Source: an uncultured Erythrobacter sp.
GTDB lineage: Bacteria > Pseudomonadota > Alphaproteobacteria > Sphingomonadales > Sphingomonadaceae
Length of the DNA: 64,000 nucleotides
Assembly (NCBI GenBank): GCA_947501215.1
Contig: CANMUS010000002.1
Coordinates: 1-64,000, forward strand
Reading direction: 5' to 3'
The position numbers and the translations under genes were made by a program. Below, piece after piece: positions 6,793 to 63,261 of this stretch (within the stretch, counting starts at the first letter, position 1; the number at the start of each line of letters is the position of its first letter). Under the pieces are notes generated by a model. The model was not told where the DNA came from, made no database searches, and worked only from the letters and a program-made list of their open reading frames with translations.

Positions 6793-7179
6793 CACGTCAC
6801 CTCCGCTTTCGCAATCGAGCACTGGCTCGGCGAGGCCCGCGAAGCAGACGATGGAACGGCACTTGTTGCTCGAACCAGGCCCCCCGCAATCCAAATTGCG
6901 GAAGCTGCTTCGCGGCCCCTGTGTTTTGGCGAGACGAGTCGAGCCCGAATCGCGTTTAATTGAGTCCGTTCAAACATCGTTTCACAGGTTGTTGCAATTC
7001 AATTAACCTATTCTGGAAACGAAATGTTCGGTCGGGTAGAAAGACGAGATAGCCTTTCAACCCTTGGAATTCTCATCTTTTTTGAAGTGCAAGCCGATTG
7101 AACGCAACAGTCCCATTTCGGGATTTGACGAAAATGTAGAGCTTTCGGTTAACCCTGGTTGCAGGCAGAAAACGCCAAT
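6793..7179 (-). promoter_or_regulatory. Upstream region of the adhesin gene, with a GANTC cluster
   Basis: No credible gene lies in these 387 nt. It is more AT-rich than its surroundings and holds three GANTC sites within 31 nt (GAGTC 6936, GAATC 6947, GAGTC 6962), about 145-175 nt upstream of the adhesin ATG. It also holds TTAACC elements at 7003-7008 and within 7146-7154. GANTC is the site of the CcrM cell-cycle methylase in Alphaproteobacteria. No convincing -35/-10 pair was fixed. Confidence 0.5.
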
Positions 7180-7644
7180 TCAGAAAAACCCGGCCAACGA
7201 ATAGGCCTGGATCAGGAAGCCGCAGCAGATCGGAAGCCCGTATGGCAGCGTCCAGCTCCGCCTCTCCTTGCCCGCCGACATCTTGAAACCCCGATACCAG
7301 ATCAGCATCGCGACAACGGCAACAAGACCTGAGATCGCTGTAAAAGCCAGCAAGCCCAAGGCCCCGGACAAAGGCACCCCGAAAGCGGCAGCGCTATAGA
7401 ATTTGGCGTCTCCGCCCCCGATCGCGCGAAGGGCGAAAAGCGCCATTCCCGCGAGAAGAGCGATGAGCGCGTGCAAAGCCGCCGAACCAAGGGCCACCCA
7501 ACCGAAACTGGCAAGTGTCGCCCCCGCTGCGGCAATGGCCAACGCAGCGACCAGGCGGTTGGGTATGCGACGGGATCGAACATCCAGCGCAGCGCCGATT
7601 ACCGCGATAAGCGCGGCAGGCAGGAAAACGATTTCGGGCGTCAT
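7180..7644 (-). CDS. cpaA: Prepilin peptidase of the Tad pilus (CpaA/TadV)
   Basis: This 154-residue integral membrane aspartic protease should cleave the leader of the Flp prepilin and pseudopilins. It is the short TadV/CpaA type without the N-terminal methylase part. One signature is clear at about residue 75: GGGDAKF, the GxGD-type motif holding a catalytic Asp. The second Asp is probably the one in AALDVRSRRIPN near residue 20. Several hydrophobic segments span the chain. It is the last gene of the Tad transcription unit, and its ATG overlaps the stop of the preceding TPR gene by 4 nt (7641-7644), so translation is probably coupled. Confidence 0.92.
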   Translation of the reverse strand: MTPEIVFLPAALIAVIGAALDVRSRRIPNRLVAALAIAAAGATLASFGWVALGSAALHALIALLAGMALFALRAIGGGDAKFYSAAAFGVPLSGALGLLAFTAISGLVAVVAMLIWYRGFKMSAGKERRSWTLPYGLPICCGFLIQAYSLAGFF

Positions 7645-8321
7645 TGTGTAAACGAAACGAGTTTCTGCTTGCCTTCGTCTTCGCTGCCGAGGTCGGTTGC
7701 CGAGGTCTGCTCGTCCTGCAATTCCGGCTCGGCCTTCGTCTCGCGCTCGAGCGAAGGCTTTTCCAGGAACGCGACAGTCATCTTCGGACCTTCGCCCAAT
7801 TGTTCACGCGTCGCGATCTTCACGATACCGTCGGAAATTCGATGGGGCCGCATGGCCAGAGGCGCCGAATCGGTTTTCGGCGCCGGCGCTGCAACCACTC
7901 TCTCCGCGGGCCAGGTCGCCTTGCGCGCGAGCATCACGTGGCGTTGCAGGCGCAGCAGGTTCGCCGTGAAGCGCATGTCCTGCGGGTCGCGAGCCACCGC
8001 GGCCCTGAAATACCGGTCCGCTATGTCGAACCGTCCCAGTTTTGCGTAGGCTACGCCGAGGCCGTTCTCCGCTGCGGCGGCGGTTGCCGGGTCGAGACGT
8101 GCCAGGCGCAGCGTCGCAACCGCGGCCGAGATATGGCCGTCGCGCAGTTGCGCTCGCCCTTCCTCGATGAGCTGGGCGCCGACGATCTCGGGCGGTGCTT
8201 CCGCAGCAGGCCGCTTGTTCTGCTTCTTGGCGAAACCCCAACCGGAAAACGGCGAGGACTGGCAGCCCGCCAACAGCATGGCAGCAACAGCAATCGTTCC
8301 GAATTTGGCGATCTTCGTCAT
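7641..8321 (-). CDS. tadD: TPR lipoprotein of the Tad locus (TadD-like)
   Basis: This 226-residue protein starts with a lipoprotein signal (AAMLLAGC, Cys about residue 19). About three tetratricopeptide units follow, between residues 45 and 130 (GRAQLRDGHISAAVATLRLA, then GLGVAYAKLGRFDIADRYFRAAV). TadD-type TPR lipoproteins are thought to act as pilotins or scaffolds for the secretin of Tad systems. The C-terminal ~80 residues are charged and low-complexity and lie outside the repeats. It sits between tadC and cpaA with a 1-nt gap upstream and a 4-nt overlap downstream. The locus context supports the name more than sequence detail does. Confidence 0.8.
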   Translation of the reverse strand: MTKIAKFGTIAVAAMLLAGCQSSPFSGWGFAKKQNKRPAAEAPPEIVGAQLIEEGRAQLRDGHISAAVATLRLARLDPATAAAAENGLGVAYAKLGRFDIADRYFRAAVARDPQDMRFTANLLRLQRHVMLARKATWPAERVVAAPAPKTDSAPLAMRPHRISDGIVKIATREQLGEGPKMTVAFLEKPSLERETKAEPELQDEQTSATDLGSEDEGKQKLVSFTQ

Positions 8322-8322
8322 C

Positions 8323-9288
8323 TCAACCCCCTCCCATCGCAGGTATCAATTCACGGAAGACCCGAATCATCCCGGGCATCATGAGTACGCCGATCATCGT
8401 GGGCAGCATGTTCACCACCAACGGGATCGATATCAGCACCGGCAGACGGTGCGCTTTTTCCTCTGCGCGCAGTCTGCGTTTCTCGCGCATCTCGGCCGAA
8501 TAGACCCGCAAGGTATCGGCAACGCTGGTGCCGAGCTTGTCGGACTGGATCAGCAGCGTCGCGAAGCTTCTGATTTCGACGACGCCACTGCTTTCGCCCA
8601 TCTTGCGAAGCGCGTCTTCGCGCCGCGCACCGGCACGCAATTGCAAGGTCACTTCGGACAGGATCTTGGCAATCAAGGGATGCGACTCGACCATCTCGCG
8701 ACCGACCCGGTCCATCGCCGCTTCCATACCGAGGCCGGCCTCGACGCAGACGAGCATCAGGTCCAGACAATCCGGGAAGCCGTGCGTTACGGCCTCGCGC
8801 CGCCGGTCCGCCTTGGCGGTGACGACCAGGTTCGGGAGATACAATCCAAGCAGCGCACAGAACGCGGCGCCGAGGTAGAGGGTGAACGTCGAAAGTTCCG
8901 CATCGAGCAACCGCATATAGGCAAGGAATAGCAGCGGGACTGCGAAGACCAGGATGAAGCGCAGCAGGGTGAAGATTTTCGGCGCCGCTGCCGACTGATA
9001 GCCCGCCGCCCGCAGCTTGTCGCGCAACACGTCGCCCTTGGAATCGGCAAGGCTCAATCCCGCACGCTCGACCCGTTCCGCAAGTTCGGCCCAGGCATTG
9101 GTGCGCTTGTCCTGGAGCGTCTCGCGGCGACCAATCCCGCCTCCCGCAATCTCGCGGATGTTCTGCCGCGCCTCGACCCGGCGAGCGGACAGGCGGCCTA
9201 CCGAGACGACGCCGATGATGACCACCGCGAAGATGAGAGCGAGAACCGCAAAGCGTGCCAGCTGGTTGGTGACGAGAAAATCGAACAT
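8323..9288 (-). CDS. tadC: Tad pilus inner-membrane platform protein TadC
   Basis: The 321-residue product belongs to the type II secretion GspF family. A hydrophobic N-terminal segment (LARFAVLALIFAVVIIGVV) is followed by paired membrane segments near residues 115-150 and a C-terminal one (ISIPLVVNMLPTMIGVLMMP). The cytoplasmic GspF domain lies between (DLMLVCVEAGLGMEAAMDRV through RSFATLLIQSDKLGTSVADTL). TadC pairs with TadB to form the platform that transmits ATPase motion to the pilin. Only 1 nt separates it from tadB. Confidence 0.92.
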   Translation of the reverse strand: MFDFLVTNQLARFAVLALIFAVVIIGVVSVGRLSARRVEARQNIREIAGGGIGRRETLQDKRTNAWAELAERVERAGLSLADSKGDVLRDKLRAAGYQSAAAPKIFTLLRFILVFAVPLLFLAYMRLLDAELSTFTLYLGAAFCALLGLYLPNLVVTAKADRRREAVTHGFPDCLDLMLVCVEAGLGMEAAMDRVGREMVESHPLIAKILSEVTLQLRAGARREDALRKMGESSGVVEIRSFATLLIQSDKLGTSVADTLRVYSAEMREKRRLRAEEKAHRLPVLISIPLVVNMLPTMIGVLMMPGMIRVFRELIPAMGGG

Positions 9289-9289
9289 G

Positions 9290-10294
9290 TCAGACCTTCA
9301 GATTGACCATTTTCTTGATCACGAAAACGCCGATCAGGAACCACACGATCATCGCCGGGAATCCGAACATGAAAATCGGATCGGTCGCGACCTCGAGGTA
9401 AAATTGCGGGTTCATGGAGAACAGGAGGACGAATGTAATGATCGGCAAGGCGGTCAGCAGCCAGCCCGTCATCCGCCCTTCCGAACTCAATGCCCGAACC
9501 TTGAGGTACAGGCTGGCGCGCTCCCGGATCACTTTCGACAGGCCGTCGAGTATCTCCGCCAGGTTGCCACCGGTTTCGTTCTGGACCGACAGCGAAACGG
9601 CAAACATCCGCATATCGTCGAGGTCCCAACGCTCCGCCATGTCTTCCAGCGCTTCGTTGAGATCGGCACCGTAAGCGATCTCGTCCGAAATCAGGCCGAA
9701 TTCCGATCCGATCGGATCGGTCATTTCCTGGGTCAGCAGGTCGATCGCTGAGGCGACCGGATGGCCCGCACGCAACGCTCGCACGAATATGTCGAGCGCC
9801 ACGGGAAACTGTTCCTGCATCTTCTTGCGGCGTCGCTGGGCGAGATAGCCGACCGCCAGCACTGGCAGACCGATGGCAACGGCCGCCGCGACTGCCACGA
9901 TCAGCTGGATCACGCCGAATGATAGCGCGAAGCCGGACGATATGGCCAGCATGGTTACGGCCAGCACGACCAGGGCGAAAATCGCCGCCATGCCCAGGAC
10001 GATCTGCGAAAAGTTGAACGGCACCGCCGCCATCATCAGGTTGCGACGGAAGCTGTTGTACGGTGCCGTGAGGAATCCAGCGCTGACGGGATTGCTGAGC
10101 GGATCGTGCTTGCGCAAGCTCCCGAGCACGTCTTCGCGGCGCTTGCCCGTTGCGATCAGCTTCAGGCGCTTGTTCACCGCACCGGCATGTTGGCGGTTTT
10201 CGATACCGAACCTCAACACGACCTGCGAGATCAGGAATATCGAGGCGAACACCGCCGACAGGACGAGAATTCGGGTAACCTCGGCGCTCAGCAT
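9290..10294 (-). CDS. tadB: Tad pilus inner-membrane platform protein TadB
   Basis: This 334-residue GspF-family protein has an N-terminal membrane anchor and two hydrophobic segments near residues 85-150. The conserved cytoplasmic domain includes the PVALDIFVRALRAGHPV region, SVQNETGGNLAEILDGLS near residue 230, and a C-terminal membrane pair. It partners TadC and the ATPase CpaF. Its ATG overlaps the cpaF stop by one base (TGATG), implying tight translational coupling. Confidence 0.93.
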   Translation of the reverse strand: MLSAEVTRILVLSAVFASIFLISQVVLRFGIENRQHAGAVNKRLKLIATGKRREDVLGSLRKHDPLSNPVSAGFLTAPYNSFRRNLMMAAVPFNFSQIVLGMAAIFALVVLAVTMLAISSGFALSFGVIQLIVAVAAAVAIGLPVLAVGYLAQRRRKKMQEQFPVALDIFVRALRAGHPVASAIDLLTQEMTDPIGSEFGLISDEIAYGADLNEALEDMAERWDLDDMRMFAVSLSVQNETGGNLAEILDGLSKVIRERASLYLKVRALSSEGRMTGWLLTALPIITFVLLFSMNPQFYLEVATDPIFMFGFPAMIVWFLIGVFVIKKMVNLKV

Positions 10295-11679
10295 CAGACC
10301 CTCCCCAGATCGAGGTTAGGCCGGAACAGTTCGGGCGAAAGGGCGATGCCGTGATCTGCAGCGGTATCGAGGAACTTTGGACGGATGCCGGTTGCCTCAT
10401 GCCGCCCGAGCACGCTTCCGTCTTCGCCGCGGCCTTCCATCTTGAAGCGGAAGATTTCCTGCATCGTGATGGTCTGGCCTTCCATGCCGACGATCTCGGA
10501 CAGGCTCAGCAGACGCCGCCTGCCGTCGGCCTGGCGCCCGATCTGCACGACGACATTAATCGCCGACGCGATCTGCGCACGGGCCGAAGTGGGCGAAATC
10601 TCGATCCCGCTCATGCCGATCATCTGCTCGACACGCGACAGGGCGTCGCGCGCGGTATTGGCGTGAACCGTCGTCATCGAGCCGTCGTGGCCCGTGTTCA
10701 TCGCCTGGAGCATGTCGAATGCCTCGCCGGAGCGAACCTCGCCCACGATGATGCGATCGGGACGCATGCGCAGGGCGTTCTTCACGAGATCGCGCTGCGA
10801 GACCTCGCCCCGCCCTTCGATATTGGCAGGGCGGGTTTCCAGCCGGGCGACATGTTCCTGTTGAAGCTGCAGTTCTGCGGAATCCTCGATCGTGACGATC
10901 CGCTCCCGCCCGTCGATATTCGCGGAGAGGGCGTTCAGCAGCGTGGTCTTGCCCGAACCGGTACCCCCGGAAATCAGTACGTTGCGCCGCGATTTGACGA
11001 TTGCGGCAAGGACGTCCGCGACCGCTTCCGGAACACTGCCGAGCTCGACCAGCTTGGCCATGTCGATCCGGGTCTTGGCGAATTTACGGATGGAGAGCAG
11101 CGAACCATCGATGGCCAGCGGTGCGACGATGGCGTTGACGCGCGAACCGTCCGCAAGGCGAGCATCGACGAAAGGCGAGGATTCGTCCACGCGCCGGCCG
11201 ACGGCGCTGACGATCTTCTGGATAATCCGCAGCAGGTGCCGCTCGTCCTGGAAACGCACGGAGGCTCGTTCGAGCAGGCCGAATTTCTCGACGAAGACGT
11301 CGCGGTGGCCATTCACAAGAATATCCGTGACGGATTCATCGGCCAGCAGCGGCTCAAGCGGCCCCAACCCGAGCAGCTCGTCCAGCACCTCCCCGGTGAG
11401 CCGTTTGCGCTCGGCCCCGTTCAGCGCAGCGTCTTCCTCGAGCAATAGCGCCAGAATGATATCGCCGATCTCTTCCTCGATCTGCTCGCGAGACATCCGT
11501 TCGAGCAGCGAGAGGTTGATCCGGTCCAGCAGTTTGCGATGGATCGTGGTTTTCAGGTCGAGCAGCTTCTCGGCTTCCTTGTCGACCTCGAAAGTGGTTA
11601 TGCGTTGCGGCGCGAAGCCTTCCTCTTCGATCTCGACTTCGGAGGCTGCGCCGTCCTGCGATCCGAACTGCCACTTCAT
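10294..11679 (-). CDS. cpaF: Tad pilus assembly ATPase CpaF/TadA
   Basis: The 461-residue hexameric secretion ATPase powers pilus assembly, and in Tad systems also retraction. The N-terminal all-alpha part (about 30-110) contains the [20 protein letters not shown] block. Walker A is GGTGSGKTT near residue 240. The Asp-box and Walker B region follow ([31 protein letters not shown]), then the His box in the MTTVHAN segment. All expected motifs are present. It overlaps cpaE by 4 nt upstream and tadB by 1 nt downstream. Confidence 0.95.
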
Positions 11680-12875
11680 TGCTCGCCTCCATCCATACGC
11701 GCGGTGATCGCATCTGCGAGCGCAGCGACATCGGCGACGAACGGGCTCTTGCGACGGATATGTCCGGCCAGCACACCGCGGTCTTGCGCAGCCTCCAGCG
11801 TCTGGGTGTCGCGCGCCAGTTTGGCAGTCACCGGCCGGCCGAGAGCTTCCTCCACGTCATCGATCCCGATCGATTTGAAGAGTTTCTTCTCCACCCGGTT
11901 GACAACGACAGAGACGAGCCGGTGATCGAGGCCGAGGTTTTTGAACAGATCCAGCCTGCGGCGCGCCTGACGCAGACTGGGAAGGGACTGCTCGACGAGC
12001 ATCACGATGCTGTCGGCTTTCGCGAGGATTGCGAGGCCCCAATTGGTCAGGCCGGATGGCATGTCGAGAACCACGTAATCGTATTCGGCACGCGCCAGAT
12101 CGAGAACCCGCGCGAGATCCTCGCTCTTCAGCGCCTCTATCGGGATGATTTCGTTGGGCGCTGCAATCAGGTCGACGCCGCATTCGTGACGTTCGGCAAC
12201 CGTATCGAGCATCGATGCATCGAGCCTTGCGCCAGCTTCGAGCAGATCGGTCAGGGTCCGGCGCGGCGAAACGCCGAACACTTCGCAGATCCGCCCGGCC
12301 TGGATATCGAGGTCGAACAGGCAGACGGTCGGTTCGCCGGGTTCGTTCGCCAGTTCCGCTGCCAAATGGCTGGCAATCGTCGTCGCGCCGGCCCCGCCGA
12401 TCGGCTTGGTGACCGCAATCAGCGGCGCGAGCGAAACGTCCTTCCCGACCGATCCCGCATGCGTTTCGAGCACGGCGATAACGGTTTGCAGGATTTCTTC
12501 GGCGTTGAAGGGCAGTTCGACGACATCGGCCACACCTTCGCGGATCAGTGTCCTCACCAAGCGCATGTCGACATCGCGCATGGCGACGATCTGCGGCATT
12601 TCCGGATACATCCGGCGAATATTGCGAATCCGGTCCATGCTGGCGGGGCTGGCCGGGTCGACTTCGAAAAGCACGACACCGGTTGCATCCAGCGCATTGC
12701 CCGGAATGGGCTCGTCCGGCTGCAACGAAATGAATTGCGCATCGCTTATCCAGCCTGCCCCGGAGGAAGAGCGTAAGTTCTCAAGCTGGCGTTCCGATGC
12801 GATCACCGTCAGCGGTGCGTTCAATTGCAACTCGGACCCCTTCCTTTGGCCGAATATCGTGTGGTCGCGGCCCAT
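11676..12875 (-). CDS. cpaE: Tad pilus localisation ATPase CpaE/TadZ
   Basis: The 399-residue protein has an N-terminal receiver-like domain (to about residue 140) joined to a MinD/ParA-type ATPase domain. The P-loop is the deviant form seen in TadZ proteins (KPIGGAGATTIASHL near residue 155). It is followed by FDLDIQAGRICEVFG and the YVVLDMPSGLTNW segment. CpaE/TadZ marks the cell pole where the pilus machine assembles. Its start overlaps the end of the preceding TadE/G-like gene by one base. Confidence 0.92.
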   Translation of the reverse strand: MGRDHTIFGQRKGSELQLNAPLTVIASERQLENLRSSSGAGWISDAQFISLQPDEPIPGNALDATGVVLFEVDPASPASMDRIRNIRRMYPEMPQIVAMRDVDMRLVRTLIREGVADVVELPFNAEEILQTVIAVLETHAGSVGKDVSLAPLIAVTKPIGGAGATTIASHLAAELANEPGEPTVCLFDLDIQAGRICEVFGVSPRRTLTDLLEAGARLDASMLDTVAERHECGVDLIAAPNEIIPIEALKSEDLARVLDLARAEYDYVVLDMPSGLTNWGLAILAKADSIVMLVEQSLPSLRQARRRLDLFKNLGLDHRLVSVVVNRVEKKLFKSIGIDDVEEALGRPVTAKLARDTQTLEAAQDRGVLAGHIRRKSPFVADVAALADAITARMDGGEQ

Positions 12876-13498
12876 CAGTTCGACACCGTTCCTGCGCCGT
12901 CTTCCATCGTCAGCGTATAATCGAAGCCGGGAAAATCGACGGTCGAGCCGAAGAGAAGGATCGAAGTGAACTCCATGTTCGTCAGGCGAACGGTCACGAA
13001 AGGAGAAACATCCATCCCGTTGGGATTGCCTGCAAAGCCCAGACCGGAACCGGTGTATTCCACCGTGATGTCCTCGTCCGCCACATCGGGCCAGAATGCC
13101 TGTATCCGCTCTGCGAGCTTATCGAAGGCGTTGGAATTAACAGTCAGGGGGACGTCGTCGAGACAGAAGCCGGAAATACACTCACATTCCGTACTCGTGC
13201 AGCTGATCGTGCCGAGCGCATCGACCGGGATCCGGTCGCCCTGCCCCAGCTGGACGCCGCCGACTGTCCGGCCGGAGAAACTGTAGGTCGCCAGCTCCTG
13301 CACCAGCGGATCCGTAACCACGGCAAAGCGCGCGCCGACCTGGCTGGCTTTCTCTCCGCGGTTGAAATCATAGGCGTAGCGGCCCGCATCGATGATGCCG
13401 ACCAGGAACAGCACGATCAGCGGCAGCACGAGTGCGAACTCCGCGGCCGAACCGCGCTGGTCCCGGCAGAACCGGGCGAGGAACGCCGCGCAGCTCAT
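12875..13498 (-). CDS. TadE/TadG-family pseudopilin-like protein
   Basis: The chosen start (ATG 13498) gives 207 residues beginning MSCAAFLARFCRDQRGSAAE. This is the classic TadE-like start: a short basic segment, Gly before the Glu, then one hydrophobic helix (FALVLPLIVLFLVGIIDAGR). The periplasmic part contains a cluster of Cys residues (ISCTSTECECISGFC) that probably forms disulphides. The frame stays open further upstream, but that extension is Arg/His-rich out-of-frame sequence of the neighbour. The start overlaps the end of the preceding tadE-like gene by 4 nt. Confidence 0.85.
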   Translation of the reverse strand: MSCAAFLARFCRDQRGSAAEFALVLPLIVLFLVGIIDAGRYAYDFNRGEKASQVGARFAVVTDPLVQELATYSFSGRTVGGVQLGQGDRIPVDALGTISCTSTECECISGFCLDDVPLTVNSNAFDKLAERIQAFWPDVADEDITVEYTGSGLGFAGNPNGMDVSPFVTVRLTNMEFTSILLFGSTVDFPGFDYTLTMEDGAGTVSN

Positions 13499-13989
13499 AT
13501 GCCCATCACCGGCGATTGCTGGGTGGCATTCAGCGAATAGCTGTCGGTGATGATGCCGACGCCGTCGAACAGGCTCTGGTAATTCACATTCGCCGTCACG
13601 GTTACCACGGGCGCATTGGTCTGCCCGTCGTAAATGCCGGTGGTCACTGCCGTTGTCGGGCATGACACCGCCACGGTCACCTCCGCATTTTCCCAGCCCG
13701 GCACGCGGGTGGTGCCGCCCGAGGGGCGCCCCGTGCGGGTCACCTCTTGGATCGCCGTCTGGACGCCGCTGTCCATGGTGGCGCCGCTCTCGCAATTGAT
13801 CGTGGCGAAGCTCTGCCGGCTGGCATAACGCGCGCCGTCGCGAACGCCCTTCACTACCTGGTGCTGGCTGTAGAAATAGTAGGCAACCTCGATCGCCCCG
13901 AACAGCATGCCAGCCAACAGTGGGAGCAGCAGTGCGAGCTCTGCGGCAGCGGCGCCCTGACGGCAGATCCAGAGATCGCGCAGTCGCAT
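13495..13989 (-). CDS. tadE: TadE-family pseudopilin
   Basis: The 164-residue protein starts at the ATG at 13989, which overlaps the upstream stop codon by one base (TGATG). It opens with MRLRDLWICRQGAAAAELAL and a single membrane helix (LLPLLAGMLFGAIEVAYYFY). A Gly/Ala-Glu context suits cleavage by CpaA. The exported domain contains RYASRQSF and a two-Cys region. TadE-like minor pilins are needed for Flp pilus biogenesis. The longer open frame upstream is a shadow of the neighbouring gene. Confidence 0.87.
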   Translation of the reverse strand: MRLRDLWICRQGAAAAELALLLPLLAGMLFGAIEVAYYFYSQHQVVKGVRDGARYASRQSFATINCESGATMDSGVQTAIQEVTRTGRPSGGTTRVPGWENAEVTVAVSCPTTAVTTGIYDGQTNAPVVTVTANVNYQSLFDGVGIITDSYSLNATQQSPVMGI

Positions 13990-15605
13990 CACTTCACCAG
14001 GAACGGAACATCGCGCCGGATCACGGTGCCCGCCGTCTCCCCAGTGCCGCCGGCATCGGATTCGCCGATGATCTCGACGTAGATATCCTTCTTGTCGGTC
14101 CGGTCGGGGCGATTGAGGCTCGGCTCGACGAGGAAGATGTCGATGAAGCGACGGATGGCGTAGGGTCCGCTCTTCCCTCTCACGTTTTCGGCATGACAGT
14201 TGATGACCGCGACCGACATCCGGCGGCGATCCGCCACGGTGGATGAAGGCGTGGTTCCGCCGGCGCCGCCCTTGCTGGCGCTGCAGATCGGCTGGGCATA
14301 ATTGCCGCGCGTCCCGTTGGTCCACTGGCCAAGGATCGTCGCTCCGTCGATGACGTTGCCCTTGTTCGCGATTTCCCACTGATACACTTCGTAGCGGGTC
14401 GGGCGGTCGGGGCGCGTACCGCTGGCGGTGAAGCCGGTGTTCGTCTGCCAGGCGGCGGAATCCCACCCGTAACGCGAGCGGAAATAGGCGTCGCGATCCC
14501 AGAACCCGTCACCGAAACGGCCGCAGGTATTGTCGTCCGGACCAAGCGAATGGCAGACGTCGCGCGGGTGCCCCATGGGCGACGGCGTGGTCGTCACCGG
14601 CAGCGCGGCATCGGTCGTCGGTGCGTAGGGATTGGCGGGGACCTGCCACCCGGCCGTCTCACCGTTATTGCTGAACTTGCACGCTTTTCCGTCAGAGATG
14701 TCCGGAACGCCCGCAGCGTCCGACTTGTGGGTCACGTCCTTGATAGAATTGATCGAGGCCGGGCACGTGCCTGGTGAAGTCCCGTCCTTGGGGCAGTTGT
14801 CGTAGATGTCGAAGCGGGTGTTGATGGCGTCGATGGTCGAAGTCTTGAGCCCGGGTTCGATCTCCACATCGATCACCTCGGGCCCGTTTACCGGCACGCA
14901 GTTCCCGGTCGGCGAAACCCAGGCGAGCGCTTCTTCCACGCCGTTCGCGCCCAGCCCCAGGTCTAGGAAGCCGAAAGCACCCGGATCCCACTTGCCCTGC
15001 TGCACCACCAGCAGCCCGTCGCCGATATAGTTGTTGGCGTTGAAATCGACCGTCGGATCGGTGTTGTTGAGCGGCTCGTCCGGATTGCAGATCATCAGCG
15101 GCGGGATGCGGCATACGGCCGATCCTATGCCCGCCACCGCTTCGGCATCGATGGTGTCGGAAATCGCCCCGGCGATCGGCGTGAGCGCGTAATTCGCCGT
15201 GCGCGTTTCCACCTGCACGCGAATGAAGCGCGCCTGCTCGTCGGCATCCGGTAGCAATCGATTGAGGTCTCTTTCAGCATCGTCAACGTTGGCGTAGAAA
15301 TAGATCTGGCCGTCGGGGATGCCGACTGCCGCTTCGCCATCGTCATTAGCAAAGCGCGTATCGTTGATGACCAGGCTGCGCGCCTGTGCCGTGGCCCGCG
15401 CGATGGAGCCGGGCAGCTGGTCCAGCTGGGTCGCCCCGGCCAGCGCAGCCTGATCGGCCGCGTTCTGGAGTTCGGTATCCATGGAAACCAGGCGCGAATA
15501 ATCGAAGCCGAGGCCGACCATTCCGACAAGTGCAGGCAGCGCGAGCGCATAGAGCGCCGCGCTGGCCCCGCTTTCGTCTCTTAGGAACTTGCCGAACTTA
15601 CCCAT
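13989..15605 (-). CDS. tadG: TadG-like Flp pilus assembly protein
   Basis: This 538-residue protein starts with the TadG N-terminal domain: MGKFGKFLRDESGASAALYA, a hydrophobic helix (LALPALVGMVGLGFDYSRLV) and the LQNAADQAALAGA helix typical of the family. The large exported remainder is rich in Cys, Pro, Gly and Asn. I see no clear von Willebrand MIDAS motif, so it is probably the type without vWA. It sits between the CpaD-like lipoprotein and tadE. Confidence 0.85.
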   Translation of the reverse strand: MGKFGKFLRDESGASAALYALALPALVGMVGLGFDYSRLVSMDTELQNAADQAALAGATQLDQLPGSIARATAQARSLVINDTRFANDDGEAAVGIPDGQIYFYANVDDAERDLNRLLPDADEQARFIRVQVETRTANYALTPIAGAISDTIDAEAVAGIGSAVCRIPPLMICNPDEPLNNTDPTVDFNANNYIGDGLLVVQQGKWDPGAFGFLDLGLGANGVEEALAWVSPTGNCVPVNGPEVIDVEIEPGLKTSTIDAINTRFDIYDNCPKDGTSPGTCPASINSIKDVTHKSDAAGVPDISDGKACKFSNNGETAGWQVPANPYAPTTDAALPVTTTPSPMGHPRDVCHSLGPDDNTCGRFGDGFWDRDAYFRSRYGWDSAAWQTNTGFTASGTRPDRPTRYEVYQWEIANKGNVIDGATILGQWTNGTRGNYAQPICSASKGGAGGTTPSSTVADRRRMSVAVINCHAENVRGKSGPYAIRRFIDIFLVEPSLNRPDRTDKKDIYVEIIGESDAGGTGETAGTVIRRDVPFLVK

Positions 15606-15623
15606 CTTCGCCTCTTTCGACCC

Positions 15624-15920
15624 TCAATTCGGGCCTTCGCCCCCTTCGCCTACATCGGTCGTGCGGATCGATTCCGGCTGCTTGACCGCATCCTCGCGAT
15701 AGCGCTCGACGGCATCGGCAGCGTGTTCGCCGCTGGTCACCAGCTCATCGGTATAGACCGGGTCCGGATTGACGACCTGCGCCATCATCGTCTGGCGGTT
15801 GGCCTCCCCGAAGGAGGCATCGCCGGGTGCTTCGAAGATCGACTTGTCGGCACAGCCTGCCAGCATCACCAGCGGGAAGGCGGCGAAAATCGCCAGCCGG
15901 GCGGATCGTTCAATATTCAT
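15624..15920 (-). CDS. Small CpaD-like lipoprotein of the Tad locus
   Basis: The 98-residue product has a lipoprotein signal (FAAFPLVMLAGC, Cys near residue 23). A short soluble region follows with FGEANRQTMMAQVVNPDPVY, which recalls the late FG...N...NP segment of CpaD pilus lipoproteins. It occupies the cpaD position between the secretin and TadG genes, yet it is about half the usual CpaD length. Its ATG lies 11 nt inside the cpaC end. It may be a reduced CpaD or an unrelated accessory that replaced it. Confidence 0.7.
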   Translation of the reverse strand: MNIERSARLAIFAAFPLVMLAGCADKSIFEAPGDASFGEANRQTMMAQVVNPDPVYTDELVTSGEHAADAVERYREDAVKQPESIRTTDVGEGGEGPN

Positions 15921-17328
15921 AATCGCTGCCTTCCTCTATCGTCACGGGGGTTTGCGGCGCGGCCAGTTCGCTGGCCGGGACCGGATCGTAAGGTTCGCCC
16001 GTCAGCACGGTGCCCGCTGCTGTCGGATCGCGCACGCGATCGGTCGGCAGACGCACCTGGTCGGGGCGGATCGGCTTCACCAGTCGCGGCGTCACTACGA
16101 TCAGCAGTTCGGTCTCGCCCTTCTGGAATTCGGTCGAGCGGAACAGCGCGCCGAGGATCGGGATATTGCCGAGCAGCGGCACCTGGTTGACCGTGGTCTG
16201 GAAATCCTGCTGCAGCAGCCCGGCGATGGCGAAGCTTTCGCCGTCGCGCAGTTCCAGCGTGGTGGAGGCGCGTCGGGTCTGCAGGCCGGGAATGGCGAGG
16301 CCATTGATCTGGATCGAGGCCGCCGGATCGATCTGGCTGACCTCAGGCTCCACCACCAGGTTGATGGTGTTGTCGCCCAGCACAGTGGGGGTGAAGCCCA
16401 GGCTGACGCCGAAGGGCTTGAATTCGACTGTTACCTGGCCAGCGACGTTTTCACCGCCTCCGCCTCCGCTCGACTGGACGACGGGGATGGGGAATTCCCC
16501 GCCGGCCAAGAACGATGCTCTTTCACCCGACAACGCTACGAGGGTCGGTTCAGCGAGCGTCTTGGCGAAGCCCTTCTCTTCCAGCGCGTTCAGGAAGACA
16601 TCGAAATCGATGCCCAAGGCGCTGAAAGTGGCCCCTATCGCGCCAAAGCTGTTCTGAATTGCGGCTGCATCGAAGACGCCGCCCACCACTTCGGAACCCG
16701 GACCGAACACGCCGCGGAAATCGCCACCGCGATCGGTAAGAAATCCACGCGCGCCTACATCTTCGCCTATTGATCGGTTCACTTCCGCGAACTTGACTTC
16801 CAGCATCACCTGCTGGCTGCTGCCGAGCGCGATCATGTTGACCACCTTCTCACCTGCGTAGGTGCCGGCTAGCCGCACCGCCCGGTCGATCATGCCGACA
16901 TCGGTGGCGAGGCCCGTCAGCACCAGCGAATCGCCGCTGATATGCGCGTCGATCTGGCCGCCGGGAATCAGGCGGGCCGCCTGGCTGCGGAAGGCTTCCG
17001 CATCGGGGCCGACGGCGATGTCCATCACCGACAGAACCCGGCCGCGCGCGTCGTAGAGCGTCAGGCTGGTGGTGCCCATGCCCTTGCCCAGCACGTAGAT
17101 CGAATTTTCGGTGAGCGCGACGATATCGGCGATATCGGCATTGCCGACCAGCGCCTTGGCGATCGGCCGGTCGGCGGTGACCACCTGGCTCTTGTTGACC
17201 GGGATCTCCAGCGTGCCGGCATGGATCTCTCCGGCGGCCGCGAATTGCGCCTGCGCCGGGCTGGCGGCCATCAGGGCGATCGGAAGGGCCGCGGCAAGCG
17301 CACGGCGCATGAAATCAGTTCGTGCCAC
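15910..17328 (-). CDS. cpaC: Tad pilus outer-membrane secretin CpaC/RcpA
   Basis: I choose the GTG at 17328 (472 residues) because AGGAGG lies 6 nt before it. It overlaps the end of cpaB by 14 nt, and an ATG at 17310 is the alternative. A signal peptide ending SPAQA is followed by the pilus/secretin N-terminal domain (KSQVVTADRPIAKALVGNADIADIV), a BON-like segment, and the secretin domain from about residue 210. That domain includes VEPEVSQIDP, the LRDGESFAIAGLLQ block, and VPLLGNIPILGALFRS, the hallmark C-terminal motif. It forms the outer-membrane channel for the pilus. Confidence 0.94.
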   Translation of the reverse strand: MARTDFMRRALAAALPIALMAASPAQAQFAAAGEIHAGTLEIPVNKSQVVTADRPIAKALVGNADIADIVALTENSIYVLGKGMGTTSLTLYDARGRVLSVMDIAVGPDAEAFRSQAARLIPGGQIDAHISGDSLVLTGLATDVGMIDRAVRLAGTYAGEKVVNMIALGSSQQVMLEVKFAEVNRSIGEDVGARGFLTDRGGDFRGVFGPGSEVVGGVFDAAAIQNSFGAIGATFSALGIDFDVFLNALEEKGFAKTLAEPTLVALSGERASFLAGGEFPIPVVQSSGGGGGENVAGQVTVEFKPFGVSLGFTPTVLGDNTINLVVEPEVSQIDPAASIQINGLAIPGLQTRRASTTLELRDGESFAIAGLLQQDFQTTVNQVPLLGNIPILGALFRSTEFQKGETELLIVVTPRLVKPIRPDQVRLPTDRVRDPTAAGTVLTGEPYDPVPASELAAPQTPVTIEEGSDYEY

Positions 17329-18220
17329 GGGACACCTCCTGGCGCGCACCGTCGGTGCCGCGATAGATCGTCATGGTCGGGCCCGAGAAGACGGGCGCGG
17401 ATGGCTGGGATGTCCCTGCCGAAGCGGGCGCCGGGCGATAGGCGACTTGCTGGCGCGGTGCGGGCGCAGGGGCGGATCGCGCCGTGCTGCTGCGAGAGTC
17501 ATAGCGCAGGCGGCCACCGGGCAGGTCGCGCGTGGTTACCACTTGTGCACTGCCGACAGACTGGTTCTCGACATTGCGCAGTGCCAGCGTCAGCCGCCCG
17601 CTCTGCGCCGCCAGCGCCAACCGCTGGGCATCGTATTGATTGGTCAGCAGCGTCGCCATTTTCAGTTCCTGCGGTTCGGTGCTGTCTTCCGAAGCGCGGC
17701 GGTCGATCGCGAGCACCTGCGCGTTCTCCAGCACGACCGATGTCATGAGGTCATCGTCCCCGCCGGGAATCTCGCGCGTCATCATCACGTCGACGACATC
17801 GCCGGGCGTCACGAAACCGGCCACGCCGGCGACGTCGTTTACGGGAATGGTCGTGGCGCGCATATCGTCGGGAATGTTTTCCGACAGGATGGCTCGCGCC
17901 GAAATGCGGGAGCGGAGGATCGGCTCACCCGCCGCAATTGGGCGAATGGCGACATTGCCGCCCGCGAAACTGTTGATGTCGTTGAAGGCGCCTGCGGGCA
18001 CCGATTGCGCGGGCCAGTTGACCAGCCGGACGGTGTCGGTCGTCAGCGGTGCGCCGAACGGAAGATCCTGCGATGCGACCGCGACGCGAACGAGCTGCTG
18101 CTCTTCCGCGATCCGCTCCTGCTCTTCCTCGACGCCGGAAAAATAGGCGTTGGTCAGGTAAACGGCCAGCACGCCCAGAACCAGGGCCGCGCCGATGATG
18201 ATGATATTGCGCCGCTCCAT
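17315..18220 (-). CDS. cpaB: Tad pilus assembly protein CpaB/RcpC
   Basis: The 301-residue product has an N-terminal membrane anchor (NIIIIGAALVLGVLAVYL). A SAF-type domain begins with VRVAVASQDLPFGAPLTTDTV near residue 45. It then has the RcpC/CpaB core, with DVAGVAGFVTPGDVVDVMMT near residue 120. CpaB proteins stabilise or modify the Flp pilus and may bind peptidoglycan or sugar. It follows flp after a GC-rich hairpin and overlaps the secretin gene. Confidence 0.92.
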   Translation of the reverse strand: MERRNIIIIGAALVLGVLAVYLTNAYFSGVEEEQERIAEEQQLVRVAVASQDLPFGAPLTTDTVRLVNWPAQSVPAGAFNDINSFAGGNVAIRPIAAGEPILRSRISARAILSENIPDDMRATTIPVNDVAGVAGFVTPGDVVDVMMTREIPGGDDDLMTSVVLENAQVLAIDRRASEDSTEPQELKMATLLTNQYDAQRLALAAQSGRLTLALRNVENQSVGSAQVVTTRDLPGGRLRYDSRSSTARSAPAPAPRQQVAYRPAPASAGTSQPSAPVFSGPTMTIYRGTDGARQEVSRGTN

Positions 18221-18316: not shown

Positions 18317-18535
18317 TTAGTTGCCGCCAGTGCTGGTGCTACCGGGGCAAGTTCCAGTAGAGTCACCATCCGGATCAATACACTTGGAAGTGTCTTGAAT
18401 GGCGTTACTAATTGAGCCCGAGAGCGTAGTCGCGGCCAATACGATTCCAAGGCCGACCACGACGAGTATCAGTGCGTATTCGGCAGCCGAAGCGCCGGAT
18501 TCGTCGGCGGCGAAGTTCTTCAGGAAATTGGTCAT
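18317..18535 (-). CDS. flp: Flp/Fap family type IVb pilin
   Basis: The 72-residue prepilin is the major subunit of the Tad pilus. A short leader precedes the core of the Flp motif: DESGASAAEYALILVVVGLG, with Gly before the cleavage site, the conserved Glu-Tyr pair and a hydrophobic helix. The C-terminal tail carries two Cys (SKCIDPDG, GTCPGS), which could form a disulphide loop, and ends in Ser/Thr/Gly residues that might be glycosylated. It is the first gene of the locus. Confidence 0.96.
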   Translation of the reverse strand: MTNFLKNFAADESGASAAEYALILVVVGLGIVLAATTLSGSISNAIQDTSKCIDPDGDSTGTCPGSTSTGGN

Positions 18536-21251: not shown

Positions 21252-22022
21252 TCAGTCCCAGTCGATATCGATGGAAACTTGGGACTCTTCGGTTCCCGCG
21301 AGCCGTGCTATTTTCGCCCGGCTCTGCGAAATGACTTTCGCCAAGGTCTCGGTCGGGGCGTTCGTCGAAGCATTGCCAGGGGTTTGCGGCGAATGGCCGG
21401 CCTGCGGAGCGTCCAGAGCAACCGGTTTGCCATAAAGCAGTTCGGTCGGCGTCACTTCGAGCGCTGCGGCCAAGCGCTGCAAGGCGGCTTCACGCGGCCG
21501 GACCTTGTCGGTTTCCCATTTCCAAAGGGTCGGTTTCGTTACGCCTGCCTGCCGAGCCAGTTCGACCATGGAGAATTTCGACCGCGTCCGCAGCAGCTTC
21601 AGCCTCTCGCCGAAAGTTGCTTCCTCCTGACGTGGCGGCAACCGGCGGGGGCCTTCGGGCATCGAATAGGCGAGGCAGGCTGCTACCTCCGCGCTGTCGA
21701 GAGGCTCGGCAAAACGGCATCCGTAGAGATTTTCGGAATGCCAGACGATCGTCGCCAGCCTCTCCCCGATATCGGGCAGGACGACGGTGATGGGCTCGTC
21801 GAGGTCGAGAGTGCCGGACGTCCCGAGCAGAATTCCGGTTTCGGAGATGTTGAATACATCGACATCGCAACCGGCATCGGTCTGCGAAATGGCGGTGGCA
21901 AGATACAGGCGGCGGCGCGGCGAGGCGCGAGACCGGCCCTTCTCTGCCGAAACTTCTGACTTGTCTTCCAAACGCCCGAGCATGAGCAAACCGCCTTTCC
22001 CGTTCGGGAAGGAGTGAAACAT
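21252..22022 (-). CDS. PilZ-XRE fusion transcriptional regulator
   Basis: The 256-residue protein joins two domains. Residues 35-105 resemble a PilZ domain: SPRRRLYLAT provides the RxxxR-like cluster and NISETGILLG the (D/N)xSxxG motif, the two elements that bind c-di-GMP. Residues 135-195 form an XRE-type helix-turn-helix (RLKLLRTRSKFSMVELARQ, then TKPTLWKWETDKVRP). The ~60-residue C-terminal tail is Ala/Pro/Thr-rich. The start has a clear AGAGGT Shine-Dalgarno. Two TTAACC-centred palindromes lie just upstream. It could link c-di-GMP level to transcription. Actual ligand binding is not shown. Confidence 0.85.
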   Translation of the reverse strand: MFHSFPNGKGGLLMLGRLEDKSEVSAEKGRSRASPRRRLYLATAISQTDAGCDVDVFNISETGILLGTSGTLDLDEPITVVLPDIGERLATIVWHSENLYGCRFAEPLDSAEVAACLAYSMPEGPRRLPPRQEEATFGERLKLLRTRSKFSMVELARQAGVTKPTLWKWETDKVRPREAALQRLAAALEVTPTELLYGKPVALDAPQAGHSPQTPGNASTNAPTETLAKVISQSRAKIARLAGTEESQVSIDIDWD

Positions 22023-22040
22023 TGCGACCTCTTTTCTCGT

Positions 22041-22054
22041 CCGGGTTAACCCGG
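22041..22054. promoter_or_regulatory. Perfect 14-bp palindrome upstream of the PilZ-XRE gene
   Basis: CCGGGTTAACCCGG is a perfect palindrome ending 19 nt before the ATG at 22022, in a place suited to an autoregulatory operator. A second inverted repeat, TTAACCG-GCGA-CGGTTAA, lies at 22108-22125. Confidence 0.5.
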
Positions 22055-22107
22055 CATCGTTAATTTTTGGTTTTGCCGACTTTCGTCGTTGCGTGGATAG
22101 GTAGACC

Positions 22108-22125
22108 TTAACCGGCGACGGTTAA
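22108..22125. promoter_or_regulatory. TTAACCG inverted repeat between the PilZ-XRE and MATE genes
   Basis: TTAACCG and CGGTTAA form 7-bp arms around GCGA. The TTAACC core is shared with the 22041-22054 palindrome. CtrA also recognises TTAA half-sites, but the spacing here is not the usual seven bases. Confidence 0.45.
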
Positions 22126-22272: not shown

Positions 22273-23718
22273 ATGGCTTACGACCTGCCCCCCGAGCCCC
22301 TGTCGTCCGATCCGGGCACCGGCAGCGACGGCTGGCGCGACGAGATCCGCGCGACCTTCCGGCTGAGCTGGCCGCTGGCGGCTGCCAATCTGCTCCAGAT
22401 GCTGACCTATGCCATCGACGTGATCTTCATTGCGCGGCTGGGAGAGGAACAGCTGGCCGCATCGGCGCTGGCGATCGCGCTGTTCGGGCTGGTCATGTGG
22501 GCACTGTCCGGCCTTACCGGAGCGGTCGCGCCCGTCGCGGCGGCGGAACTCGGCGAGCGCGCGCCGGCATTGCGGCCCGTCCGGCGCACGGTTCGCATGG
22601 CCCTGTGGCTGGCCGTTTTCTCGGGCCTCGGTGGCGTTGCTTTATGCCTGCTGCTCGGCCCGCTGATGCGGATGACCGGCCAAGAGCCGCGCATCATCGC
22701 GCTGGCGCTGGAGTACAACACCGTCCTCGTCATTTCGATGGTGCCGTTCCTGATCAACAACGTGTTGCGCAGCTTCGTCTCGACGCTCGACCGGCCGATC
22801 TTCGCGACGGCGATCACGGCGGGCGGCATCTTCGTCAACGCACTGGCGAATTATGCCTTTATCTTCGGTAATCTGGGCGCGCCCGAGCTGGGCCTGCGCG
22901 GCGCGGCGGTGGCGACGATCATCACCACGCTCGTGACGCTGCTCGCTTATGTGGTCGCGATCCGCATCGACCCGCGCCTCCACCGTTATCGCATTTTCGG
23001 ACGCTGGTGGTCGCCGGACTGGCCGCGCTTCATGCAGATCGTGCGGGTGGGCACACCCATTGCGCTGACGATCACAGCGGAGGCCGGAATTTTCGGCGCG
23101 GCCGCCTTCCTGATGGGAAATATCGGCGCGACCCAACTGGCTGCACACACGGTCGCGCTGCAGATCGCCGCGCTCGCCTTCCAGGTGCCGTTCGGCGTAG
23201 GCCAGGCGGCAACTATCCGCGTCGGCTACTTCTACGGCGCGCGCGACACCGACGGCATGAAGCGCGCCGGGTGGAGCGCAATCGTGATCGGTACCGGCTT
23301 CATGCTGCTGACGGCGATTGCCATGGTCGCGATCCCCAAGCCGCTGTTGGCGATCTATATCGACCCGTGGGACCCGGCCAATGCGGAACTGGTGGGCTTC
23401 GCGCTTACCTACATCGTGGTCGCCGCGGCCTTCCAGCTGTTCGATGGGATGCAAGCGGTCGCTGCCGGGGCCCTGCGCGGGCTACAGGACACGCGCATCC
23501 CGATGTGGATTGCCGCCTTTGCCTATTGGGTGCCGGGGATCGGCACGGCGCTGGTGCTCGGCTTCGCCACACCGCTCGCTGGCATGGGCGTATGGATCGG
23601 ACTTGCGACGGGGCTCACATTTGCCGCGCTGTTGCTCGGCTGGCGCTGGCACCGGCGCGATGCACTGGGCCTGACGGTCAGGCCTGTGGGCGTGCCGCCT
23701 ATGCCGCCCGCTGCGTGA
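22273..23718 (+). CDS. MATE family multidrug/metabolite exporter
   Basis: The 481-residue protein has the twelve-helix MatE architecture in two halves. The first half opens with RLSWPLAAANLLQMLTYAIDVIFIARLG. The second opens near residue 250 with IVRVGTPIALTITAEAGIF and includes MGNIGATQLAAHTVALQIAALAFQVPFGVGQA. MATE pumps export cationic drugs or metabolites using Na+ or H+. The substrate cannot be predicted. Its stop overlaps the convergent MscS gene by 20 nt. Confidence 0.93.
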   Translation: MAYDLPPEPLSSDPGTGSDGWRDEIRATFRLSWPLAAANLLQMLTYAIDVIFIARLGEEQLAASALAIALFGLVMWALSGLTGAVAPVAAAELGERAPALRPVRRTVRMALWLAVFSGLGGVALCLLLGPLMRMTGQEPRIIALALEYNTVLVISMVPFLINNVLRSFVSTLDRPIFATAITAGGIFVNALANYAFIFGNLGAPELGLRGAAVATIITTLVTLLAYVVAIRIDPRLHRYRIFGRWWSPDWPRFMQIVRVGTPIALTITAEAGIFGAAAFLMGNIGATQLAAHTVALQIAALAFQVPFGVGQAATIRVGYFYGARDTDGMKRAGWSAIVIGTGFMLLTAIAMVAIPKPLLAIYIDPWDPANAELVGFALTYIVVAAAFQLFDGMQAVAAGALRGLQDTRIPMWIAAFAYWVPGIGTALVLGFATPLAGMGVWIGLATGLTFAALLLGWRWHRRDALGLTVRPVGVPPMPPAA

Positions 23719-62565: not shown

Positions 62566-63261
62566 ATGCGTGTACTGCTGATCGAAGACGAACCGACCAC
62601 CGCCAAGGCGATCGAGCTCATGCTCACGACCGAAGGCTTCAATGTCTATTCGACCGATCTTGGCGAAGAAGGCCTCGATCTGGGCAAGCTGTATGATTAC
62701 GATATCATCCTGCTCGATTTGAACCTGCCCGACATGCATGGTTACGATGTGCTCAAGAAGCTGCGCGTTGCCAAGGTGCAGACCCCGGTCCTGATCCTGT
62801 CCGGCATTGCCGAGATGGACAGCAAGATCCGCAGCTTCGGCTTCGGTGCCGACGATTACGTGACCAAGCCCTTCCACCGCGAAGAGCTTGTTGCCCGCAT
62901 CCACGCCGTGGTGCGCCGTTCGAAGGGCCACAGCCAGTCGGTCATCCGTACCGGCAAGCTGGCCGTCAACCTCGACGCCAAGACCGTCGAAGTCGATGGC
63001 GCCCGCGTTCACCTCACCGGCAAGGAATACGCCATGCTGGAGCTGCTTTCGCTCCGCAAGGGCACCACGCTGACCAAGGAAATGTTCCTCAACCACCTTT
63101 ATGGCGGCATGGACGAACCCGAACTCAAGATCATCGACGTCTTCATCTGCAAGCTGCGCAAGAAGCTCAGCCACGCATGCGGCGGCGAGAACTATATCGA
63201 GACCGTATGGGGCCGCGGCTATGTTCTGCGCGACCCGAACGAAGAGGCGGAAGCGGCTTAA
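62566..63261 (+). CDS. ctrA: Cell-cycle response regulator CtrA
   Basis: The 231-residue OmpR-type regulator starts [20 protein letters not shown]. The phospho-acceptor is Asp51 ([18 protein letters not shown]), with [20 protein letters not shown] and a winged-helix domain ([32 protein letters not shown]). It matches CtrA in length and receiver sequence. The C-terminus ends EEAEAA. The gene is monocistronic after rpoN. Confidence 0.95.

Follow-up and report, generated by a model that had tools for sequence, protein, structure and literature searches.

PilZ domains usually act after translation. The 64,000-nucleotide stretch of DNA from an uncultured Erythrobacter sp. that was analysed here as a whole (the window) carries a gene in which such a domain is joined to an XRE-type DNA-binding domain, with TTAACC palindromes just upstream. 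This raises the question whether the encoded protein could pass a c-di-GMP signal directly on to transcription, which genes it might control and which regulator the palindromes serve. The gene and the parts of its product are:

21252..22022, minus strand: PilZ-XRE regulator gene, 256 aa; matches the profile of its own family with E 1.1e-74
21687..21929, minus strand: PilZ domain, aa 32-112 (Pfam PF07238); R36 and N58-x-S60-x-x-G63 are present, Tyr40 occupies the position of the second Arg (residue columns, 65 members)
21438..21614, minus strand: XRE/Cro-type HTH, aa 137-195 (Pfam PF13560/PF01381); recognition region GVTKPTLWKWE
21255..21347, minus strand: conserved C-terminal tail, approximately aa 226-256 (alignment); occurs also on PilZ-only and HTH-only relatives

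The fusion postulated in the preliminary description of the locus is real. Both domains lie in one open reading frame of 256 aa and exceed the curated Pfam cut-offs, PF07238 with 31.7 bits (cut-off 22.5) and HTH_3/HTH_31 with 49.1 and 39.6 bits (cut-off 27 for the 49.1-bit match). All 22 aligned members have the HTH match and 20 of them the PilZ match. In the alignment of these 22 members, conservation extends to a third part at the C-terminus, where a tail of some 30 residues follows the pattern S-R-x-x-I-A-x-x-x-G-T-x-x-x-x-V-x-I-x-I. Visual inspection showed this tail also on L039, a PilZ protein of 172 aa that lacks the HTH, and on L038 and L037, which have the HTH and lack PilZ; it may therefore constitute a pairing module. 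Genome G042 encodes both kinds, stand-alone HTH-tail and stand-alone PilZ-tail proteins. Solved XRE domain structures match the family profile (best E 1.2e-11), and only HTH structures were among the matches listed; when compared with structures by sequence, the PilZ part alone matched no PilZ structure, the best hits being unrelated proteins (E 0.14). An AlphaFold prediction for the window protein and its 93% identical counterpart L005 from a close relative, a Qipengyuania (Erythrobacteraceae), reached a mean pLDDT of 39.7 and a pTM of 0.20. Taken together, the domain assignments support classification as a PilZ-XRE one-component regulator.

Similar proteins are not confined to this genome. 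In the taxonomic family, 69 of 119 genomes contain a match at E <= 1e-3, and both domains are recognized at E < 1e-21 in 20 genomes, the own genome included. In the order, 154 of 296 genomes match at 1e-12 and at least 72 hold at least one full-length member, which is a lower bound because scoring covered the ten best candidates of each genome. A second member is encoded on another contig of the own genome (C4:30354-31010). For the residue-column counts given below, 80 full-length rows were condensed to 65 different members. We found no title or abstract opening describing a PilZ-XRE fusion; subscription papers mostly fell outside the coverage of this search, and absence from the literature is hence unproven. 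We conclude that this is a real, little-studied family of PilZ-XRE regulators.

The idea that the fusion acts as a direct c-di-GMP switch depends on the ligand site. The (D/N)xSxxG motif is complete in the window protein (N58-I-S60-E-T-G63), and the RxxxR motif is incomplete (R36-R-R-L-Y40). Among the 65 members, the first Arg and the N/D residue are each kept in 64 and Ser and Gly in all 65, while the second Arg is present in 33; at this position R, Q, K, Y, F and V are found even among orthologs from the same locus. In Alg44, the exchanges R17A, R21A and D44A each abolish c-di-GMP binding, according to the accessible part of a review (PMC12564702), and the available text on PlpA indicates that even complete motifs need not confer binding (PMC8316039). 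As the second Arg is replaced by Tyr40 and a single Arg exchange suffices to eliminate binding in Alg44, c-di-GMP binding by the window protein appears doubtful and we lean against strong binding. For about half of the family, where RxxxR is complete, a direct c-di-GMP switch is possible on the basis of the motifs.

The neighbourhood of the gene provides information about possible targets:

18317..18535, minus strand: Flp/Fap pilin (Pfam PF04964)
7180..18220, minus strand: Tad/Flp pilus assembly genes (CpaB/RcpC, secretin, Tad protein, AAA, T2SSE ATPase, two T2SSF, prepilin peptidase; Pfam)
22273..23718, plus strand: MATE transporter, divergent neighbour (Pfam MatE); all 14 loci of this type in the genus are arranged in this way

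The window gene resides 3 kb from the Tad/Flp cluster, and its paralogue at C4:30354-31010 is divergent from a spore-coat-U/chaperone/usher operon. The survey covered the 79 genomes that have full-length members. Of these, 35 encode CpaF of the window type (class A, at least 71% identity), and in 14 of these 35 a full-length PilZ-XRE gene lies within 11 kb. Eleven of the 14 cases belong to the genus of the window and one each to three other genera, so that four genera are represented. A second CpaF type (about 49%), which is present in all 79 listed genomes, was left out of the counts. Chaperone-usher loci were located with the own usher protein; the Pfam usher model detected ushers in 4 of the 79 genomes at 1e-15 and missed those of the own genome (E 1.5e-9 when compared directly with the own usher protein). 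This search yielded 25 usher genes, distributed over 22 of the 79 genomes. Nine of them, in three genera, have a full-length PilZ-XRE gene within 3.3 kb; seven of these PilZ-XRE genes are divergent from the fimbrial operon, one is in tandem and one convergent; one further usher adjoins an HTH-tail protein. About 0.4 (Tad) and 0.1 (usher) cases would be expected by chance according to our own arithmetic from genome lengths, compared with 14 and 9 observed, whereby counts by genome depend on descent and the cases are not independent. PilZ-XRE members adjoin Tad and chaperone-usher loci far above chance, an association that is newly found here. In the tree, each of the labels Tad-side and fimbria-side requires at least two changes, and the Tad-adjacent L150 is nested inside a clade containing fimbria-side members. 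The association is not strict: class-A Tad lies away from a PilZ-XRE member in 21 of the 35 genomes having it, and three genomes of the same genus (G275, G306, G274) retain the PilZ-XRE gene and have no class-A Tad cluster. A separate observation concerns PilZ-XRE proteins that are 98% identical (L145/L107 versus L053) and adjoin very unlike fimbrial operons, whose ushers are 67% and 36% identical to the own usher, which suggests that the fimbrial operon was exchanged.

The following elements are relevant for the control of the PilZ-XRE gene itself:

22041..22054, no strand assigned: perfect palindrome CCGGGTTAACCCGG, position confirmed exactly; contains a further TTAA half-site; kept in L125, one change in L005
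22108..22125, no strand assigned: inverted repeat TTAACC-N6-GGTTAA; one arm lost in L005, both arms with another centre in L125
22053..22076, minus strand: CtrA-type box AAAA-N7-TTAA (GCAAAACCAAAAATTAACGATGCC), 12.4 bits, second in the window; 54 bp before the PilZ-XRE start codon
62459..62482, plus strand: CtrA-type box before ctrA, 14.2 bits, best in the window
62566..63261, plus strand: response regulator (Pfam Response_reg and Trans_reg_C), identified as CtrA from its sequence

Both palindromic elements of the preliminary description exist at exactly the positions named there. Conservation is another matter, as the exact 14-mer occurs in 2 of 17 same-genus upstream regions (window and L125), is changed at one position in L005 and is missing from the other 14, and the repeat has lost an arm in L005. 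The TTAACC sites noted upstream of the adhesin gene (7003 and 7147) and near ctrA (62472) are likewise present, and the 64-kb window holds 12 copies of TTAACC against 5.6 expected. A distance of 253 bp separates position 7147 from the start of the giant adhesin-like open reading frame (1-6894, minus strand), a repeat protein with DUF5801, Big_9 and cadherin-like domains that runs off the window. Other repeats occur at other members. In the spacer between a paralogous PilZ-XRE gene and its fimbrial operon (L061:10000-10480, L127), CTTAACACTTTGTTAAG-like and CTTAAC-N6-GTTAAG repeats are kept in two genomes. Upstream of the PilZ-XRE gene, five same-genus loci (L129, L132-L135) differ from the window promoter in sharing a conserved GTGACAAACTGGCACCGC/GTGACAAACTGGCACCGCTTTGCCACA element that contains a TGGCA...TGCCA repeat.

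The motif GGTTAACC is found twice in the window (0.17 expected from shuffling) and four times in the 3.04-Mb genome, compared with 37 occurrences of the reversed control. The four sites are located at the PilZ-XRE promoter, in the adhesin upstream region, 53 bp before a GGDEF gene and 62 or 140 bp, depending on the start chosen, before a GGDEF-EAL gene; the genome has 12 GGDEF matches in total. As two of the four sites revealed by this genome search are just upstream of GGDEF genes, the earlier guess of a c-di-GMP-related regulon was a fair one. Sites directly before GGDEF genes are G000:C1:522036 (L001), G000:C3:31908 (L004), L217 and L247. In all 27 genomes of the genus GGTTAACC is rarer than its reversed control (4-15 versus 14-79 per genome), as if it were avoided. 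We inspected 84 different sites in the genus. At fourteen of them a GGDEF or PilZ gene, as recognized by motif or eye, begins no more than 350 bp downstream, and five of these were confirmed by Pfam or are the query itself (L001, L003, L004, L194, L247); one further fragment with the motif, L258, gave no Pfam match. Most of the other sites are at unrelated genes. The orthologous positions of G365 and G371 carry the GGDEF-EAL site as well. Genome G371 has no PilZ-XRE member at 1e-20, and in G363, which has the PilZ part only and no full-length PilZ-XRE protein, GGTTAACC precedes a PilZ gene. We therefore rejected GGTTAACC/TTAACC as the operator of the PilZ-XRE protein: some TTAACC regulon is supported, but the fusion protein is probably not the owner of the motif. 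With the motif kept where the protein is missing, a better candidate is CtrA or some other conserved regulator.

Several observations point to CtrA. The form AAAA-N7-TTAA is described as a CtrA box in the accessible part of PMC11264516, and the candidate box at 22053-22076 is of the TTAA-N7-TTAA type expected near the -35 region of CtrA target promoters. The direct repeat [C/T]TAAC (CTAA/TTAA pairs) at a distance of 11 bp is exact in 8 of 21 family members. The exact box pattern is not enriched genome-wide, as the reversed control is more common (41 versus 89 in nine other genomes, 3 versus 10 in the own genome). Within the nine-genome set, all six genomes whose member has the box show the pattern there, and many other matches are just upstream of genes, including those for a RAMA-domain adenine methylase, which we take to be CcrM-like, a Tad protein, a CheA-like kinase and a polysaccharide export protein. 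The box upstream of the CheA-like kinase gene is found in G014, a genome without a PilZ-XRE member. A matrix was trained on 18 of 33 loci, none of them PilZ-XRE. Four PilZ-XRE loci were deliberately kept out, and 11 loci were dropped owing to a site inside a frame, lack of a convincing downstream gene on the same strand or unclear status; several of the 18 kept overlap some frame. In 130-bp upstream regions, the matrix scores at least 8 bits for 32 of 63 members, i.e., those of the 65 with usable start and upstream sequence (starts were picked by a simple Shine-Dalgarno rule), compared with 11 of 416 control promoters. Three of these 11 are PilZ-XRE members missed by the filter, and the top one is ctrA. 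At 12 bits, 19 members are opposed by 3 controls. The single score of 12.4 bits in the window is no proof, because maxima of 7.9-13.3 were obtained for five random 64-kb sequences. Twelve of the 14 same-locus orthologs in the genus lack the box (negative scores), the exceptions being the window and L125. For the own paralogue the matrix score is close to zero, though its spacer to the fimbrial operon has a conserved TTAA-N7-TTAA; the site upstream of the adhesin gene, at 7.8 bits, is a weak CtrA box. From the matrix scores we consider the PilZ-XRE gene, in the window and in roughly half of the family, to be probably a CtrA target, and the promoter palindromes more likely belong to CtrA than to the PilZ-XRE protein.

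Where the PilZ-XRE protein itself would bind was approached through its recognition helix and through shared words. At residue 168 of the HTH, 19 of the 65 members have Lys, 43 have Ala and 3 have Gly. Lys168 marks the window type, L043 and L151, which both adjoin Tad, as well as L140/L141, and in several fimbria-side members S-A-W replaces W-A-W. Such helix variation fits operators that have diverged. The word TAACCGTCG, which occurs upstream of both flp and the PilZ-XRE gene, appeared promising in the window (4 versus 0.29 expected), but was discarded on the genome scale (25 versus 38 for the control). The longest word common to these two regions is an 11-mer, no more than expected by chance (9 of 150 simulations), and a search for words common to the PilZ-XRE upstream regions and the rest of the 14 loci gave nothing consistent.

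In principle, these data can be explained by different functions of the protein. In the preliminary description, it binds c-di-GMP and the TTAACC palindromes, regulates its own gene and controls the adhesin gene and ctrA. In its favour, short palindromes close to the start of their own gene are common binding sites of XRE dimers, the 14-mer is both unique and perfectly palindromic, the four genomic GGTTAACC sites belong to the PilZ-XRE gene, the adhesin gene and two GGDEF genes, and R36 and N58-x-S60-x-x-G63 are kept. Against this, the palindrome is exact in just 2 of 17 same-genus promoters, GGTTAACC precedes c-di-GMP genes in G371 and G363 without the full-length protein, most of the remaining sites of the genus belong to unrelated genes and Tyr40 replaces the second Arg, which leaves the odds of the full model low and makes it improbable. 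A local function would be control of efflux through binding in the 250-bp spacer to the divergent MATE gene, with the pili as bystanders in gene order. Divergent gene pairs often mean local control, and the MATE gene is the most constant neighbour within the genus, where the pair occurs in 14 of 14 loci, even without Tad, which adjoins 11 of the 14. However, the whole conserved region from rplL to groESL shares this constancy, so that the pairing may be mere old synteny; a marker search found no MATE gene adjoining the family in the loci tested outside the genus, and the pilus association recurs in other genera. We give this explanation only a small chance.

A further alternative is that the PilZ domain no longer senses c-di-GMP and serves as a platform for dimerization or a partner, the regulator answering to that partner or to its own abundance as set upstream. 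Loss of the second Arg in 32 of 65 members, variable among same-locus orthologs, agrees with this, as do precedents: the available text of PMC10333796 describes PilZ domains that do not bind the ligand and work through partners, and the PilZ domain of the enhancer-binding protein MXAN_2902 is predicted not to bind (PMC8316039, seen in excerpt form). On the other hand, near-invariance of the first Arg, N/D, Ser and Gly looks like selection on a ligand site, and half of the family has a complete RxxxR. We regard this alternative as unlikely. The computation itself yields the architecture, the family, the recurrent location at pilus genes and the CtrA-type box at about half of the promoters including that of the window. 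The best explanation of the whole, for which we consider the chances about even, is a one-component regulator of neighbouring pilus genes, here Tad/Flp, which in this organism is probably under CtrA. Phosphorylated CtrA would time transcription of the PilZ-XRE gene, the TTAACC palindromes being half-sites of this CtrA input rather than a PilZ-XRE operator. The protein would then bind a putative operator via its HTH and switch the neighbouring pilus operon on or off. The PilZ domain would tune this switch, with c-di-GMP as a putative ligand in members with full RxxxR; in the window protein, weakened binding or a protein partner may take its place.

Comparison with characterized systems helps to place the family. 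MrkH from Klebsiella pneumoniae, a PilZ transcription factor encoded beside fimbrial genes, controls chaperone-usher fimbriae (PMC3161979, accessible part), and PilZ-XRE genes also reside beside fimbrial genes (9 of 25 ushers, 14 of 35 Tad genomes, the window gene beside Tad). MrkH is the PilZ representative among the c-di-GMP-responsive transcription factors listed and combines PilZ with a novel, non-HTH DNA-binding domain (PMC12564702, in the part of the review available), whereas a canonical XRE HTH is present here. In addition, PilZ-XRE neighbours include Tad as well as chaperone-usher loci, and the dependence on c-di-GMP is putative. Because the DNA-binding part differs, the PilZ-XRE proteins do not belong to the MrkH family; they are MrkH-like in the outline of their role, not in build. 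The Caulobacter proteins RtrA, RtrB, CdxA and CdxB are likewise XRE regulators steering a surface adhesin in an alphaproteobacterium, in a network that includes CtrA, as far as the searched text of PMC10688885 describes them. They differ by acting on hfiA and the holdfast; the term 'PilZ domain' had no occurrence in the search of that paper, and the comparison is one by description only. In MXAN_2902 from Myxococcus xanthus, PilZ is also fused to a DNA-binding transcription regulator, which is, however, an enhancer-binding protein and not XRE, and its PilZ domain is predicted not to bind c-di-GMP (PMC8316039, excerpt). The CtrA regulon resembles the present case in its box, CTAA/AAAA-N7-TTAA, and in having pilin genes among its Caulobacter targets, according to the available portions of PMC11264516 and PMC9437464. 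The difference is that the assignment here is drawn from sequence comparison and that the role of the PilZ-XRE gene would be that of a target instead of the regulator.

A more far-reaching scenario, which is speculative and on balance rather unlikely, would have the family read c-di-GMP directly and, in the many members under CtrA, join cell-cycle and second-messenger inputs to choose between Tad and chaperone-usher pili. Specificity would have shifted with the pilus locus (WKW, WAW and SAW helix types), and split PilZ-tail and HTH-tail proteins would pair via the tail. The half-and-half state of the RxxxR motif represents a natural experiment on the loss of ligand binding. A widespread PilZ-HTH family beside Tad and chaperone-usher loci would offer a simple genetic handle on the coupling of c-di-GMP, the CtrA cell cycle and pilus choice in alphaproteobacteria.
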